From Pontibacter sp. FD36 (lineage in GTDB: Bacteria; Bacteroidota; Bacteroidia; Cytophagales; Hymenobacteraceae): DNA of 64,000 nucleotides. Both the position numbers and the translations under genes were made by a program. Of this stretch, positions 5,494 to 43,234 are shown in pieces. The stretch covers positions 62,001-126,000 of the forward strand of contig NZ_JADPMP010000014.1 of assembly GCF_015686655.1 (NCBI RefSeq), in the 5' to 3' direction. The notes under the pieces were generated by a model. It did no database searches and was not told the origin of the DNA. It saw only the letters and a program-made list of their open reading frames with translations. Every line of letters starts with the position of its first letter. The stretch's first letter is position 1.

Positions 5494-5501
5494 TATATTT
5501 G
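5494..5501 (+). promoter_or_regulatory. -7 box for the arginase-fold gene
   Basis: TATATTTG matches TAnnTTTG and lies 19 bases before the ATG at 5521. The 241-base gap between the divergent acyl-CoA synthetase and arginase-fold genes must hold promoters for both. I could identify only this one. Confidence 0.55.
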
Positions 5502-5520: not shown

Positions 5521-6672
5521 ATGAACCTTTCCATCTTTTTCGAACCTCTGAATGAGGACATTTTTGCGCTGCTTGACAAACCGCGCACACTTGGTGCCTA
5601 CATCGGCCGCTTTACTGGCAAATTCCCCGACTGGCGCTCAGCTGACATCGCCCTGATCGGGATAAACGAGACCCGGGGACAAGGAGAGGAAACAGTAGCA
5701 GAGATGATTCCGGCCCGTGCTGTACGCAAAAAACTGTACAGCATGCACAAAGGAGCCGGTCGCTGCAACATAGTCGACCTGGGCAACCTGCGCCCGGGTA
5801 TAACACTCGACGACACTTACCTGCGGCTGAAAGAAATCGTTGAAATCCTCATCTCCCATAACACCATCCCCATTATCATTGGCGGCACGCATGACCTGGA
5901 GTACGGACAATACATGGGCTATGAGTACCTGGAACGTGCCGTGAATATGGTGACCGTGGACAGCAGTGTGGACATGAGCGAAGACAATGACGTGCCTGCC
6001 AATAAAAAGCAGCTCCGCCAGATTCTGATGCACGAACCAAACTACCTCTTCAGCCTGGGCCAGATCGGCTATCAGTCTTACCTGGTGGACCCAGAAGTGA
6101 TGGCCACGTTCGAAAAGCTGCACTTTGAGGCATACCGTGTAGGCGAAGTGCACCGCAGTGTGCAGGAGATGGAGCCGGTTGTACGCCTGGCTGATTTGCT
6201 CACTTTTGATATTTCGGCTATCCGCCATCAGGATGCGCCGGGCTATACGCCAGCCAACCCGTTCGGGCTTACAGGCGAGGAAGCCTGCCAGCTGTGCTGG
6301 TATGCAGGTCTGAGTGACCAGATGACATCACTGGGAATTTACGAGTATGATCCGGCACAGGACAGCCAGGAACTAACGGCCATGACCATCGCCACCATGA
6401 TCTGGTACTTCATAGAGGGCTTCTACCACCGCAAGAACGAAACAGAATTCAGCTCTAGCAAGTTTACCAAATACGCCGTCGCCTTCAGTGACAATCCGGA
6501 GCGTATGACATTCTATAAAAGCAAAGCAAGTGAAAAGTGGTGGATGGAAGTAGAACCCCTTTCAGACGAAAAGAGTCCCCGCATTGTACCCTGCAGTTAT
6601 GAAGACTATCTGCAGGCCATCAAAGGCGAAGTACCTAACCGCTGGATCCTGACACAGTCCCGCATTGGCTAA
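5521..6672 (+). CDS. Arginase/formimidoylglutamase-fold protein with degenerate metal site
   Basis: A 383-residue member of the ureohydrolase (arginase, agmatinase, formimidoylglutamase) family, as shown by IIIGGTHDLEYG, TVDSSVDM and LTFDISAIRHQDAPG, which line up with the three metal-binding motifs of arginases. Active members have GGDHS, DAHxD and DxD. Here the His of the first motif (H124) and the outer Asp residues of the second (D147, D151) are kept. The central His of DAHxD is Ser149 and the second Asp of DxD is Ser232. Two of six metal ligands are therefore missing, so hydrolysis of formimidoylglutamate is doubtful even though homologues carry that name. No other histidine-degradation gene is nearby. 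A cytochrome b5-like gene follows closely. Confidence 0.85.
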   Translation: MNLSIFFEPLNEDIFALLDKPRTLGAYIGRFTGKFPDWRSADIALIGINETRGQGEETVAEMIPARAVRKKLYSMHKGAGRCNIVDLGNLRPGITLDDTYLRLKEIVEILISHNTIPIIIGGTHDLEYGQYMGYEYLERAVNMVTVDSSVDMSEDNDVPANKKQLRQILMHEPNYLFSLGQIGYQSYLVDPEVMATFEKLHFEAYRVGEVHRSVQEMEPVVRLADLLTFDISAIRHQDAPGYTPANPFGLTGEEACQLCWYAGLSDQMTSLGIYEYDPAQDSQELTAMTIATMIWYFIEGFYHRKNETEFSSSKFTKYAVAFSDNPERMTFYKSKASEKWWMEVEPLSDEKSPRIVPCSYEDYLQAIKGEVPNRWILTQSRIG

Positions 6673-6743
6673 CACTTCAGGAAGCGAACAAAGAAACAAA
6701 CCCGATTCTGTTCCGTTTGCCCCAATCACTAGGGCAGTATTAT

Positions 6744-6751
6744 TATATTTG
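6744..6751 (+). promoter_or_regulatory. -7 box for the cytochrome b5-like gene
   Basis: TATATTTG matches TAnnTTTG and ends 30 bases before an ATG at 6782. A TTTG lies 24 bases further upstream, slightly beyond the usual spacing. This favours 6782 over any upstream start. Confidence 0.5.
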
Positions 6752-6781
6752 CAATCCGGGCTCTGTGAGGCCTGCAATCAA

Positions 6782-7039
6782 ATGGAAGAAAATCTCCCGG
6801 AGTTCACCCTGCAACAGCTTGCCCTGCGCAACGGCCAGGACCGTGACGAAGTATGGGTGGCTTACAAAGGCCTGATTTACGACGTGAAAAAATCACGCCT
6901 GTGGCGGAGCGGCAACCACTACGAGCACTGGGCAGGCCAGGACCTGACCGAGGAACTGAAGGATGCACCACATACCGAATATGTATTTGACAAATTTGAG
7001 GTGATCGGACAAGTCAAAAATTCAGTATACCGAAAATAA
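6782..7039 (+). CDS. Cytochrome b5-like heme/steroid-binding domain protein
   Basis: A short protein of 85 residues from the ATG at 6782. It consists almost entirely of a cytochrome b5-like domain: FTLQQLALRNGQDRDEVWVA, then YKGLIYDVKKSRLW and a GNHYEHWAGQDLTEEL segment. The two histidines (of NHYEH and of APHTEYVF) are candidate heme ligands as in membrane-associated progesterone-receptor-like proteins, but binding cannot be proved from sequence. A longer reading frame with a TTG at 6665 overlaps the arginase-fold gene by 8 bases. I prefer 6782 because a promoter box lies between the two candidate starts and the domain begins just after the internal Met. Function is unknown. Confidence 0.75.
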   Translation: MEENLPEFTLQQLALRNGQDRDEVWVAYKGLIYDVKKSRLWRSGNHYEHWAGQDLTEELKDAPHTEYVFDKFEVIGQVKNSVYRK

Positions 7040-32832: not shown

Positions 32833-33639
32833 TTAATCTAGTATTCCGGCTTTGCGTTTGTAAACAGGGGGGCAGTTGAGTCGATATAGTGTGTAAGAAA
32901 GGCTTATACCGTTATAGAAGTACATATCTTTATCGAAGGGATTAGCATACGCCTTTGAGCCGCTCGCCCCCAGATCTGTAGCTAACAATCCAGATCCACT
33001 CTCTTGCAGATAGTCCAGGTTATCTGTAAACATAAATCGAGGGCCGAACTCCAGACCCAAATTCCAGTGCTTGCTTAGCGCATATTTCACCCCTACTCCA
33101 AAAGGAATGGTAACCGCAAATTTGTTATCGAATGGCTCCATCACATTGCCCTGGCGGGTAAGCTGGTGGTTAAAGTTGAGCAATGCGGCTCCTAAGAAGA
33201 AATAAGGCGATACGCGGTGCGGCTTACGAACATCTTCGTAGTAATCGAGAAAATTGTACTCTATACCTAGCGAAAACTCCAGCATACTTAGCTTCAACTC
33301 CGTGTCACGCCAATCGTGATGGGGAAGGTTTTGCGACTCATCCTTGAATGCCTTGTCGTTAAATATGCGATGGCTACCCATGAAGGCAGCCTTGAGCGTA
33401 ATAGGCGCTGAGATATCATGACGATAGAAGATCGTCATGGCAGGTTGGTTATTTAAAAAGCGGTAATTGGGTGATATCTCACCAACATAATTAGCTCCGC
33501 CTATACCGGCACCAATCTCACTGGTGGTCACAGGCTTGATCTGCTGCAGCTGAGCCTTAGCAGTATTGCATAAAAAGACGCTCCCAATTTGCAGTAGTAC
33601 ACAAATAAGGAGCGTCTGTCTGAATGTATTCAAAATCAT
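32833..33639 (-). CDS. DUF6089-type outer-membrane beta-barrel protein, second copy
   Basis: A 268-residue protein from the ATG at 33639. A signal peptide (LLICVLLQIGSVFLCNTAKAQ) is followed by SEIGAGIGGANYVGEISPNYRF, then alternating polar and hydrophobic strands typical of a small 8- to 10-strand barrel, with KYALSKHWNLGLEFGPRFMF near the end. It resembles the next upstream gene (shared GIGGANYVGEI / GASNYFGDL pattern and the RxTFTD/RFMFTDxLD segment), so they are tandem paralogues. The role is not known. The context between NAD kinase and UppS-BamA points to the outer membrane. Confidence 0.83.
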   Translation of the reverse strand: MILNTFRQTLLICVLLQIGSVFLCNTAKAQLQQIKPVTTSEIGAGIGGANYVGEISPNYRFLNNQPAMTIFYRHDISAPITLKAAFMGSHRIFNDKAFKDESQNLPHHDWRDTELKLSMLEFSLGIEYNFLDYYEDVRKPHRVSPYFFLGAALLNFNHQLTRQGNVMEPFDNKFAVTIPFGVGVKYALSKHWNLGLEFGPRFMFTDNLDYLQESGSGLLATDLGASGSKAYANPFDKDMYFYNGISLSYTLYRLNCPPVYKRKAGILD

Positions 33640-33686
33640 GTATTTTTTACGGAGTTTAGAAAAACAACGCACTATACTCCGTTATA

Positions 33687-34688
33687 TTATCTGAATTTAG
33701 GTCTTCTTACACGTGGGTTCAGGATATAGTTCAGGCCTAAGCTTGTTTGGATGTACCAATCATTGTCAGAGCTGTTACCGCGTGTACGGTTACTGCTTGT
33801 ACCGTATGGACGAAGACGGCTGAAACCATTAGGCTCTGTAATCAGGTCATTTGTGAAGCCTGACTCAGCGCTTCTGTCAGAGAAGATTACAGAGGCATTG
33901 CGGTTGTCTACGCGGTTACCCTCGCTTAGCAGTACGTTTTTGTCTACGTGAGCTGTACTTACGTCATCCAGGTAGTCTGTAAAGGTGGCTCTCCAACCTA
34001 CCTCGAAGCTAAAGTCCCAGTTGCGGTCTAGCTTGTATCGTACACCAAGTCCAAAAGGAATGGCAATCTGTACGCGGCTGTAAGGGTCACTAACAGTACC
34101 CGGGTGATCTACGAACTGACCTTCTGTACCTAGTGGCTGTAGGGCATACCAGCCAGAAGGAATATCCTGATCAGCTGACAAACCTGGATGAGAGCCATTT
34201 TCATAATACGCTTTCGGGTTGTGGTGCATTACTGCCACACCAATGAAACCATAAGGCACGAAGTCCGGACGACGACGGTAGTAGTTACGGTTTTCAAAAA
34301 GGTCAATGATCGCTACAGCACTCAACTCTTTGATGTCATTGCGGAAAGACAGGTTACGTCTGTATCGGTCTATGTTCTCACCTTCATCAGGTCCGGCTGC
34401 CAGGGCATCGTCACCCGCAATGCGGTTCCAGTTGAAAGCCACACGCGAAGAAATACGCGGGAAGTGACGGTGCGTATAATTGATACCTACACTTGGACGA
34501 GTAGACTTTATGCGCATACTCGTAAAGTTTGGCTGAGGCACCAGGTCGCCGAAGTAGTTAGAAGCACCCAGCTGGATACCCACTGTGGAGTACTCCTTTC
34601 GCTTGGTAAAACGCTGTGCTTCAGCCTCTATGGCCACAGTGGTAAGCACAACAGTAAGTAATAAAAACAGCGTAGTAAATCTCTTCAT
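33687..34688 (-). CDS. DUF6089-type outer-membrane beta-barrel protein, first copy
   Basis: A 333-residue protein from the ATG at 34688. The signal peptide (FTTLFLLLTVVLTTVAIEAEAQ) precedes STVGIQLGASNYFGDLVPQP and a barrel-like remainder, with GVRYKLDRNWDFSFEVGWRATFTDYLDDVS matching the paralogue downstream. The C-terminus is rich in Arg and Asn (NRTRGNSSDNDW). The frame is open another 51 codons upstream, but that stretch is AT-rich, contains the promoter box at 34756-34763 and overlaps the nadK stop, so it is not coding. The two DUF6089 genes lie 47 bases apart. Confidence 0.85.
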   Translation of the reverse strand: MKRFTTLFLLLTVVLTTVAIEAEAQRFTKRKEYSTVGIQLGASNYFGDLVPQPNFTSMRIKSTRPSVGINYTHRHFPRISSRVAFNWNRIAGDDALAAGPDEGENIDRYRRNLSFRNDIKELSAVAIIDLFENRNYYRRRPDFVPYGFIGVAVMHHNPKAYYENGSHPGLSADQDIPSGWYALQPLGTEGQFVDHPGTVSDPYSRVQIAIPFGLGVRYKLDRNWDFSFEVGWRATFTDYLDDVSTAHVDKNVLLSEGNRVDNRNASVIFSDRSAESGFTNDLITEPNGFSRLRPYGTSSNRTRGNSSDNDWYIQTSLGLNYILNPRVRRPKFR

Positions 34689-34755
34689 AGCGAACCAATT
34701 TCTTTTTAAGCGTATTTCCGCAGGCTTATAATTCTTCCAAATTAAACCATTGTGA

Positions 34756-34763
34756 CAAAAATA
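34756..34763 (-). promoter_or_regulatory. -7 box for the DUF6089 gene pair
   Basis: The minus strand reads TATTTTTG (consensus TAnnTTTG) in an AT-rich gap, giving a leader of about 65 bases before the ATG at 34688. It suggests a new transcript start within the envelope block. Confidence 0.45.
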
Positions 34764-34812
34764 GAAATAATTTTCTGGTATAAAAATATGTATATTAAAT
34801 ATTGAATATAAT

Positions 34813-35700
34813 TTACCTAAAAATATTTGTTCTTTTATCAAGACCCCAGTTTAACTTGCCACGCAAGGTGGTCAGGAAGTTTACGTGATGCAGTTTGACA
34901 AGTCGTGCCACAAAATTCTCTCGTCGCACTGCTATCTGAACTGACATGTCTACTGGAACGGACCTTGAGTCGAGCGAGGCCAGGTATGTGCTGCTGCGCC
35001 CTTCTACTTCAAAAGAGATCACGCTCCGGTCTGACACAATCATGGGCCGCACATTCAGGTTGTGAGGGCATACGGGTGATATAACGAAATTGTTGGTCTG
35101 TGGCAATACCAAAGGACCGCCACAGCTAAGCGAATAGCCCGTCGATCCGGTTGGGGTGGCCACTACCAGCCCATCAGCCCAGTAAGTGTTCAGATACTCA
35201 CCATCTATATACGCATGTACAGCTATCATGGACGAGGAATCACGCTTTAGCAAACTGAATTCATTAAGCCCGAAGTTAATCCCATCAAAGATTTCCAGAT
35301 CAGAATCCACTCGGATCAATGCCCGGTCATCGAAGGTATAGTGTCCTTTGAAAAGGGCATCCAGCGCCAAGTTGATGCTGTCGTGAGCAATGGTAGCCAG
35401 GAAGCCGAGGCGGCCCGTGTTGATACCCAGAATCGGGATCTGGAGCGCCCCCACATAGGTGACAGTGTCCAGCAAAGTACCGTCGCCGCCCAGGCTCAGG
35501 ACAAAGTCTACTCCTTCCAGGCTATCTCCACGGGTGAAAGTAGGTATACTCCCGGGCAGGTTGATGCGATTCTGCAGAAACAGACTGAAATGCTCTACCA
35601 CCAGAATGTCGGCTTTACGGCGCTGCAGTTCGTCAAAGAGATTCTGAATAAACGGACCGTACTCTTCGTCAAAGGGTTTTCCCAGTATAGCTATCTTCAT
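34813..35700 (-). CDS. nadK: NAD kinase
   Basis: A 295-residue enzyme that phosphorylates NAD to NADP with ATP. It carries SLGGDGTLLDTV with the GGDG motif (residues about 70-82), GINTGRLGFLA, the NE-type segment GLNEFSLLKRD, and ADGLVVATPTGSTGYSLSCGGP of the glycine-rich C-terminal domain. Length fits the family. It starts 14 bases after the small BamA-like gene and lies in the conserved CBS-Omp85-NADK-porin-UppS-BamA order seen in Cytophagales. Confidence 0.95.
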   Translation of the reverse strand: MKIAILGKPFDEEYGPFIQNLFDELQRRKADILVVEHFSLFLQNRINLPGSIPTFTRGDSLEGVDFVLSLGGDGTLLDTVTYVGALQIPILGINTGRLGFLATIAHDSINLALDALFKGHYTFDDRALIRVDSDLEIFDGINFGLNEFSLLKRDSSSMIAVHAYIDGEYLNTYWADGLVVATPTGSTGYSLSCGGPLVLPQTNNFVISPVCPHNLNVRPMIVSDRSVISFEVEGRSSTYLASLDSRSVPVDMSVQIAVRRENFVARLVKLHHVNFLTTLRGKLNWGLDKRTNIFR

Positions 35701-41145: not shown

Positions 41146-42174
41146 GTGATCAACAGCATCACCATAGAAGACTTTCTGCAGAAAGCGAAGCAGTTGCCCG
41201 TGCTGGATGCCCGCGCTCCCAAAGAGTATGCGATCGGACGTATACCACAGGCATTGAGCTTCCCTATTTTTTCGGATGAAGAGCGGGCTAAAGTAGGTAC
41301 TGCTTACAAACAACAGGGGCATGACCCGGCTGTGCTGATCGGACTCGACCTGTTTGGCCCCAAGATGTCAAAGCTTGTGCGGGAAGCAGAGAAACTGGCG
41401 CCAAGCAAAGAGCTACTCGTGCACTGCTGGCGCGGCGGTATGCGCAGTGGCGCCATGGCCTGGCTCCTCGACTTTGCCGGATTCCAGGTATACCTGTTGC
41501 AGGGCGGCTACAAGGCTTACCGCCACTACATGCACGAGCAGTTTGAGCGTGAGCGTCCATTGCTTATTATCAGCGGGAATACCGGCAGCGGTAAAACCGA
41601 CCTGCTCCCCTACCTGCAACAGCAGGGTCAACAGGTCATTGACCTTGAAGGGCTGGCAAGTCACAAAGGCTCTTCTTTTGGGAGTATCGGCATGGCGCCT
41701 CAGCCTAGTACCGAGCACTTTGAGAACCTGCTGGGTATGACCATGCTCGAGCTGGATGATCAGCAACCACTGTGGCTGGAAGACGAGAGCATCAGCATCG
41801 GTAAAGTACAGATGCCCAAGCCACTCTTTGATCATATGCAGCAGTCGCCTACCATTGTGCTCGAAGTACCCAAGACGCTGCGTATACAAAAGCTGGCCGA
41901 AGAGTACTGCCGCACTGATCCAGCCCTGTTGGAGTCGGCCATTCTCAGAATAAAAAAACGCCTAGGAGGGATGGCCACGAAAGAGGCAATTGAAGCCATC
42001 TCGACTGGCGACATGGAGAAAATGGTCGACATCGCCCTCACCTATTATGACAAGGCCTATACCTACGAACTAGCCAAAAAGCAGGAGGTGTTGCGGCTGC
42101 CCCTGGAAACTTTGAACCCGGAAGAGAACGCCCAACGCCTGATTAAATTTGCAACACAGCATCAGCTGATCTAA
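41146..42174 (+). CDS. mnmH: tRNA 2-selenouridine synthase
   Basis: A 342-residue enzyme (also SelU/YbbB) that replaces the sulfur of 2-thiouridine at the wobble position of certain tRNAs by selenium from selenophosphate. The N-terminal rhodanese domain has the catalytic Cys94 in [11 protein letters not shown], and the second domain has a P-loop GNTGSGKT (residues 144-151). The start is a GTG at 41146, two bases after the pdxJ stop. The selenophosphate source, SelD, is encoded next, so substrate and user are in one operon. Confidence 0.95.
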
Positions 42175-42178
42175 TACC

Positions 42179-43234
42179 ATGGAAGAAACTAGCATACAAG
42201 ACATAAAGCTTACCCAGTACAGCCACGGTGCTGGCTGTGGCTGCAAAATATCCCCTAAAGTGCTCGATAAGATCCTGCACACCAATATCCACTATCCCGA
42301 AAACGACAAGCTACTGGTTGGGAACAGCTCACGCGACGATGCCGCCGTGTATGACATTGGCAATGGTCGCGCCGTCATCAGCACCACTGACTTTTTCATG
42401 CCGATCGTGGATGACGCCTATGACTTTGGCCGTATCGCCTCCGCCAACGCCATTTCGGATGTATATGCCATGGGCGGTATACCTACCATGGCTATTGCCG
42501 TAATGGGCTGGCCGATTGACAAACTAGCCCCTGAGGTAGCCAAGCGTGTGATAGAAGGTAGCCGCAGCATCTGTCACGAAGCAGGTATACCATTGGCTGG
42601 TGGCCATAGCATCGACAGCCCCGAGCCGATCTTTGGCCTGGCCGTAACCGGTATGCTCGACATCCCGAACCTGAAGCGAAACGATACCGCCACTGCCGGT
42701 TGTGAGCTATACCTGACCAAGCCGCTCGGCGTAGGTATACTGACCACTGCTCAAAAGAAAGCCATCCTGAAACCAGAGCACGCGCACCTGGCACCACAGC
42801 AGATGATGCAGCTCAATAAGATTGGCTCAGACCTAGGACAGTTGACGCAGGTAGAAGCCATGACCGATGTAACCGGGTTTGGTCTGCTGGGCCATCTATC
42901 CGAAATGTGTGAAGGCAGCAACCTGACAGCTGAGGTGTACTTCGACAAGGTACCCGTTATAGCGGAGGCGTTAGAATACCTGGCGCATAAGGCTATACCT
43001 GGTGGTACGCACCGCAACTTCGACAGCTACGGTCACAAAATAGCCGAACTCACTCCAGACCAAAAGCACCTGCTCTGCGACCCACAAACCAGCGGAGGAC
43101 TATTAGTTGCTGTAGCCCCGGGCGGGCGCGAAGAAGTACTGCAGGTGTTTGAGAAGTATGGCTTGCAACTTCAGCCGCTCGGTATGCTGAAAGAGCGCGG
43201 CAGCGAAGAGAAGCTGATTCGGGTGGTATCATAA
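42179..43234 (+). CDS. selD: Selenide, water dikinase (cysteine form)
   Basis: A 351-residue PurM-like kinase making selenophosphate from selenide and ATP. The N-terminal active site GAGCGCKI has Cys20 and Lys23, equivalent to Cys17 and Lys20 of E. coli SelD, so this form uses cysteine rather than selenocysteine. [37 protein letters not shown] and [12 protein letters not shown] are family signatures. Only mnmH, not selA or selB, is nearby, so the likely use is selenouridine in tRNA. The stop of mnmH lies 4 bases before the ATG. Confidence 0.95.

Follow-up and report, generated by a model that had tools for sequence, protein, structure and literature searches.

The gene and its product

The analyzed DNA, referred to here as the window, is a stretch of 64,000 nucleotides on contig C5 of a Pontibacter genome whose closest named relative is P. 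lucknowensis (99%). An open reading frame at positions 5521-6672 of the forward (+) strand encodes a protein of 383 amino acid residues followed by a stop codon. This protein is called here the pseudo-ureohydrolase (pArg). The neighbours of the gene are a divergently oriented acyl-CoA synthetase gene on one side and, on the other, a small ORF resembling cytochrome b5. The latter, at 6665-7039 (+), directly 3′ of the gene, scores 30.9 bits against Pfam Cyt-b5 and has an ambiguous start; when 95 neighbourhoods were clustered, 12 contained a relative, and each of these came from Pontibacter, Hymenobacter or Solirubrum. The Bacteroidota −7 promoter consensus is TAnnTTTG, and the sequence TATATTTG at 5494-5501 (+), about 20 bases 5′ of the start codon, fits it; by eye, a matching −33 TTTG was not seen. 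Inspection by eye revealed no signal peptide in the Pontibacter protein, which is probably cytoplasmic.

The initial annotation had described an arginase-fold protein that lost two metal ligands. The fold was borne out by sequence and by model. Pfam Arginase (PF00491) matches residues 44-297 with an E value of 9e-19 and 68.4 bits, above the gathering cut-off of 22 bits. An AF2 model built on a 71-row alignment (mean pLDDT 87.2, pTM 0.81) aligns over residues 19-305 (5575-6435, +) with the structure 4myn (Z 35.0, rmsd 2.4 Å, 278 residues aligned). 4myn, the formiminoglutamase of T. cruzi, is also the top phmmer match of the protein among solved structures. In this phmmer alignment, VDSSVDM is paired with VDSHLDV, and FDISAI with FDVDSL. 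Thus, Ser149 (5965-5967, +) stands at the His of the DxHxD motif and Ser232 (6214-6216, +) at the second Asp of the DxD motif, in agreement with the two replacements that had been proposed from the sequence. The residues claimed to be kept, His124 (5890-5892, +), Asp147 (5959-5961, +) and Asp151 (5971-5973, +), are indeed present, and so is Asp230 (6208-6210, +), which had not been listed. Following the arginase literature, I take positions 124, 147, 151 and 230 to form the first Mn site, with Asp147 and Asp230 common to both sites, and assign positions 149 and 232 to the second Mn site alone. On this assumption, the Pontibacter protein has a complete first site and serines in place of the second-site-specific pair.

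The arginase core is followed by a C-terminal extension (residues 307-383; 6439-6669, +), which was predicted by itself as an alpha/beta unit of four strands and two helices with a pLDDT of 89.4. A search of this domain against Pfam gave no confident match, and neither did a comparison with the PDB, where the best Foldseek E value was 0.61 (YkuJ) and the best Z was 4.7. Thus, a binding role gains no support from homology. WGR/WRKY DNA-binding domains recurred among the weak fold matches (Z about 3); they were treated as noise, though they would be compatible with a connection to topA, discussed below.

Loss of the second metal site across orthologues

An alignment of 75 deep orthologues was used to examine the ligand positions. 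It had been proposed that Ser149 and Ser232 might be invariant, and this did not hold. Position 149 is K in 20 sequences, R in 19 (K/R in 39 of the 75), F in 9, L in 9 and H in 5, with other residues in the rest. Position 232 is S in 18, T in 16, G in 12 and A in 8, with other residues in the rest and D or E in none. When the entropies of 266 core positions are compared, 219 positions are lower than position 149 and 223 are lower than position 232. On the other hand, D147 (75/75), D151 (70/75; N in 5) and D230 (74/75) are near-invariant. Position 124 is divided between H (37/75) and Q (36/75). None of the 75 sequences keeps the six-ligand set. Since no orthologue has all six ligands, and since positions 149 and 232 are variable while D147, D151 and D230 are near-invariant, the ligand loss exceeds what chance or sequence error would give. 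The conserved feature is the absence of the second site, while the serines themselves vary. In the column that corresponds to the ureohydrolase substrate Glu, 45 sequences have E and 24 have G. Altogether 20 positions are invariant, and five of them (W340, W341, C358, Y363 and P372) lie within the C-terminal extension.

The 75 rows leave out sequences whose cores are too diverged for safe alignment (L174-L178 of family f6 and L179-L182 of family f8), near-copies (most of L001-L031 and L061-L093), and L145, which has no match. Other diverged members, for example L259, L261, L263, L266 and L267, have lost between two and all four of the first-site ligands. Five diverged f6 rows have an Asp in column 232, but they have lost 147, 151 and 230, and L180 retains a DxD motif but none of the motifs of the first half. 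In contrast, all 20 other arginase-family matches of one draw have the canonical set H/N-D-H-D-D-D (H first in 17, N first in 3), and the HutG of the same Pontibacter genome (L002) keeps the canonical ligand set as well.

A conserved clade in the class

Is the loss a peculiarity of Pontibacter? In a 70-row tree, which was midpoint-rooted for drawing only, a single branch with a support of 100/100 separates 40 pseudo-forms from 30 canonical forms. The additional C-terminal alpha/beta domain is present in these 40. The gene was matched in 200 of 200 genomes of the family to which the window belongs (f1), the weakest best E value being 5e-55. Across the class, a profile search matched 308 of 326 genomes, or 307 after the removal of G813, which was found to be canonical when 21 genomes were re-examined; the same re-examination revealed strongly diverged forms in G638 and G666 and a fragment at a contig end in G664. 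The 19 genomes without the gene include G821, where a contig ends, and G690, whose sister genomes carry strongly diverged forms. Nine pairs within the genus gave dN/dS values of 0.014-0.061 (dS exceeds 1.8 in five of these pairs), so the pseudo-ureohydrolase is under purifying selection.

In a single-protein search of the phylum, 195 of 392 genomes were matched, 98 of them outside the class. Twenty of the 98 were inspected, namely 18 of 20 drawn stretches together with L184 and L185 (the other two of the draw, L249 and L250, are second matches inside the class), and the other 78 are presumed to be canonical. In 19 of the 20 all six ligands are intact, the first being H or N; L185, a canonical outgroup, is the exception with N at 151.

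Two odd frames were met in this survey. In G635 (94% complete; L268/L275/L280), the gene is split across frames and one piece contains three TAG codons, which is either a recent break or a sequencing error. A frame of 1043 residues that encloses the gene in Hymenobacter busanensis (L094 and L141) was considered as a fusion and rejected; its upstream part was read as an antisense frame because the neighbours carry the acyl-CoA synthetase gene there on the opposite strand.

The formimidoylglutamase label

According to the initial annotation, such proteins are usually labelled formimidoylglutamase although no hut gene is nearby, and the doubt about this label proved justified. Against the NCBIfam model for formimidoylglutamase (TIGR01227), the Pontibacter protein scores 55.1 bits and does not reach the cut-off of 229.15, and five relatives score 28-86 bits. 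The true HutG of the Pontibacter genome scores 306.8 bits (match at C1:14771-15586). It lies about 1.6 kb from hutU (C1:17223-18842), with hutH at C1:110940-112421; all three are on contig C1, and no hut gene was found among the subset of window ORFs scanned. Since the score falls far short of the cut-off and a genuine HutG is located near hutU elsewhere in the genome, the name formimidoylglutamase is wrong for the window gene. HutG (TIGR01227; 4myn/4mxr and 3m1r) shares the fold and is the closest relative of the protein in sequence and structure, but the Pontibacter protein is without both second-site ligands, has the extra C-terminal domain and is encoded outside the hut cluster. Thus, a gene that is near-universal in the class sample is not to be taken for a histidine-degradation step. 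In a report on a Mariniflexile genome, the histidine pathway is said to be absent 'except for formiminoglutamase' (PMC11278836). This remaining gene may be a pseudo-ureohydrolase under the wrong label.

A probable pseudoenzyme

The most probable explanation is that the gene encodes a class-wide pseudo-ureohydrolase, a catalytically dead protein with a binding or scaffold function. The initial annotation had left three readings side by side: a single-metal protein, another chemistry, or a non-catalytic member. The non-catalytic reading is the best supported of these because of the drift of the second site, the split between H and Q at 124, the alternation of E and G in the substrate-Glu column and the first-site losses in diverged members; the single-metal reading retains a small chance and is taken up below. 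Most simply, the second Mn site would have been lost before the clade spread through the class, while the arginase fold was kept and the small C-terminal alpha/beta domain came to accompany it. The protein would then act most likely as a cytoplasmic binding or scaffold protein. Its former active-site cleft, with three Asp residues and often K or R149 where metal B would sit, may be structural or serve as a ligand pocket, and the C-terminal domain, rich in Trp, Cys and Tyr, would be a likely contact surface. Some observations weigh against this explanation: the near-invariance of D147, D151 and D230, the His at position 149 in five of the 75 orthologues, the Asp in column 232 of the five diverged f6 rows, the DxD motif of L180, and the N at 151 in a canonical form (L185).

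Arginase-family pseudoenzymes have been described. In metformin hydrolase, the arginase-family subunit MetCb is free of metal and serves to activate its catalytic partner; the same report calls the functions of other non-canonical arginases elusive (PMC11271267). MetCb (homologues 8snf and 8ryi) is likewise a pseudoenzyme with varied metal ligands and acts as a protein binder. It is encoded beside its catalytic partner, whereas the pseudo-ureohydrolase has no such neighbour in 184 loci and spans a whole class. The arginase-like protein TbARG of Trypanosoma brucei, a eukaryote, is likewise reported to have an arginase fold and to have evolved in the absence of a binuclear Mn cluster. TbARG is not known to have a C-terminal extension of the present kind. 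In the Pontibacter protein, as in pseudoenzymes of the MetCb and TbARG kind, metal-binding residues are lost and the fold is kept. Histone deacetylase-like proteins are a one-metal version of the arginase/deacetylase fold and keep the Asp-His-Asp second site, which is exactly the site that the pseudo-ureohydrolase has lost.

Gene neighbourhood and possible partners

With what could such a protein interact? The view from the window had not taken in a wider pattern, which consists of the class-wide clade, the extra C-terminal domain and, in families other than that of the window, a linkage to topA and gldKLMN. Family f7 is one of many in which the gene sits between topA and genes of the type IX secretion system (T9SS). 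TopA, GldK, GldL, GldM, GldN and PorP were named by NCBIfam and Pfam in L146 and L170, and in the other loci by similarity. GldN was found within 15 kb in 74 of 112 genomes, always downstream and on the same strand (74/74), and these 74 represent 24 families; it is distant on the same contig in 11 genomes and on another contig in 27. These 112 are the genomes listed with both places out of 303 with both genes, and they are biased to high scores. Twenty loci from 20 families, picked for a nearby GldN but not for topA, all read pArg-porP-gldK-gldL-gldM-gldN, and 19 of them have topA directly upstream.

The spacing differs on the two sides. Between topA and the gene, with start codons chosen by a script, the gap is at most 15 bp in 20 of 39 loci (three of which overlap) and at most 276 bp in 36. 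Before porP or gldK it is 70-393 bp with a median of 132 bp (37 loci). The gene thus looks transcriptionally coupled to topA, while the T9SS genes next door, given this gap, are perhaps under their own promoter.

These arrangements are not universal. In the window's family and in f2, f4 and f5 (the f4 flanks are mostly about 1.5 kb), no topA and no T9SS genes were seen around the gene. The same holds for individual loci from f58, f89 and further diverged families, often with flanks of about 1.5 kb. The porP-gldKLMN cluster of Pontibacter itself is intact on contig C34, away from the gene. In four of five f6 loci, topA lies upstream on the same strand without T9SS genes, 1.9-3.6 kb away in three of them. 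Conversely, loci of f9 and f96 and three of the five from f8 have T9SS genes next to the gene and no topA. In the last three (L180, L181 and L182), the homologue is shortened; the arginase core has lost the greater part of its first half and the C-terminal domain is kept, which indicates that the extension can outlive the enzyme core. Each of these genes lies near gldK and converges on a gene that by eye resembles murF, and porP was seen in two of the three. Seven T9SS clusters from genomes lacking the gene had no topA within the fetched flanks.

The likeliest partner, as a tentative suggestion, is the T9SS/gliding motor unit encoded downstream in many families. The pseudo-ureohydrolase might be an accessory or regulatory part of this machinery on its cytoplasmic side, for example on GldL. 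Besides the downstream position of gldN and the constant order in the fetched loci, this idea draws on the shortened f8 homologues that adjoin gldK and on co-occurrence. Of the class genomes sampled, 303 carry both genes, 4 have the gene without GldN, 14 have GldN without the gene, and 5 have neither. Thus, GldN is found in 303 of 307 carriers versus 14 of 19 non-carriers (Fisher p 4e-5, phylogeny ignored). However, the association weakens to p = 0.0045 without family f11, in which all six sampled genomes lack the gene, T9SS present or not, and which holds three of the five genomes with neither; the other two measure 0.5 and 1.2 Mb. Among the carriers without GldN, a GldM piece scores above the cut-off in G820 and below it in G666, and in G636 the contig ends on the downstream side of the gene. 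G543 (99% complete), however, keeps the gene with neither GldN nor GldM by these searches. The 14 GldN-bearing genomes without the gene belong to eight families, which argues that T9SS as such does not require it; G821 is a possible exception among them, since its porP runs into a contig end and the gene may simply lie in unassembled sequence. The counts show that neither strictly needs the other, and the statistical support for a link is weak and confounded by phylogeny. The absence of linkage in f1, f2, f4 and f5 and the 70-393 bp gap, which may hold a separate promoter, also speak against a T9SS role.

GldL has a cytoplasmic domain according to PMC10202324, and it is conceivable, purely as speculation, that the pseudo-ureohydrolase makes contact there. 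No paper linking an arginase-like protein to T9SS was found among the matches listed by the literature searches, which did not reach most subscription papers or any preprints; PMC9169529 is the one paper found to contain both 'arginase' and 'gldK', and its passages use 'arginase' for a biochemical test. If the linkage does reflect function, a conserved part of T9SS or gliding has been hidden under a metabolic label. In its boldest form, the idea is that of an arginase turned adaptor, an unrecognized cytoplasmic component or regulator of the T9SS/gliding motor, whose gene ancestrally lay between topA and porP-gldKLMN and later moved, for example in the Pontibacter lineage. I regard this as possible, though it may well be wrong.

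A role in topA-related functions is the next candidate, and a rather doubtful one. The gene would then follow topA within one transcription unit, and the pseudo-ureohydrolase would work with DNA topoisomerase I, as suggested by topA lying directly upstream in 19 of 20 loci not chosen for it, by the short gaps, and by the f6 loci that have topA without T9SS genes. On the other hand, topA is generally essential, and the gene is nevertheless absent from 19 of 326 class genomes. Moreover, topA was not seen near the gene in f1, f2, f4, f5 and the single f58 and f89 loci (many with flanks of about 1.5 kb), and the f8, f9 and f96 loci hold the T9SS link without it.

Less likely alternatives

A dead enzyme is not the only reading of the ligand pattern. 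A single-metal hydrolase could operate on the first site, since this site is complete in the window protein (His124, Asp147, Asp151 and Asp230). The near-invariance of D147, D151 and D230 would also fit one retained metal in the H124 lineages (37/75). However, the fourth ligand should be preserved if the function depended on a metal, and 36 of the 75 orthologues have Q at position 124. Furthermore, the substrate-Glu column is G in 24 of 75, and L259, L261, L263, L266 and L267 are without two to four of the first-site ligands. I thus consider a single-metal hydrolase unlikely, slightly more so than a topA-related role. It is very improbable that the protein, like MetCb, joins a canonical ureohydrolase in a hetero-oligomer as its non-catalytic subunit: the MetCaCb precedent (PMC11271267) and three other strong arginase-family matches in the Pontibacter genome (motifs checked for HutG only) would allow it, but no second arginase-like ORF was found in 184 loci with a match (flanks of 1.5 to 6 kb), and G297 and G336, both 100% complete, hold one arginase-family match each (E 3e-24 and 1e-19, weak scores typical of the pseudo-ureohydrolase, by which the lone match was taken to be this gene), so that a canonical partner is seemingly no general need.

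Other features of the window

Two adjoining PorG-like ORFs were found at 32833-33672 (−) and 33687-34841 (−), between uppS/bamA and an NAD kinase gene. The first scores 165.5 bits and passes the NCBIfam T9SS PorG cut-off of 130, while the second is below it with 106 bits. Further along, mnmH, which encodes tRNA 2-selenouridine synthase, and selD are adjacent at 41146-43234 (+), and their adjacency points to the use of selenium in tRNA.
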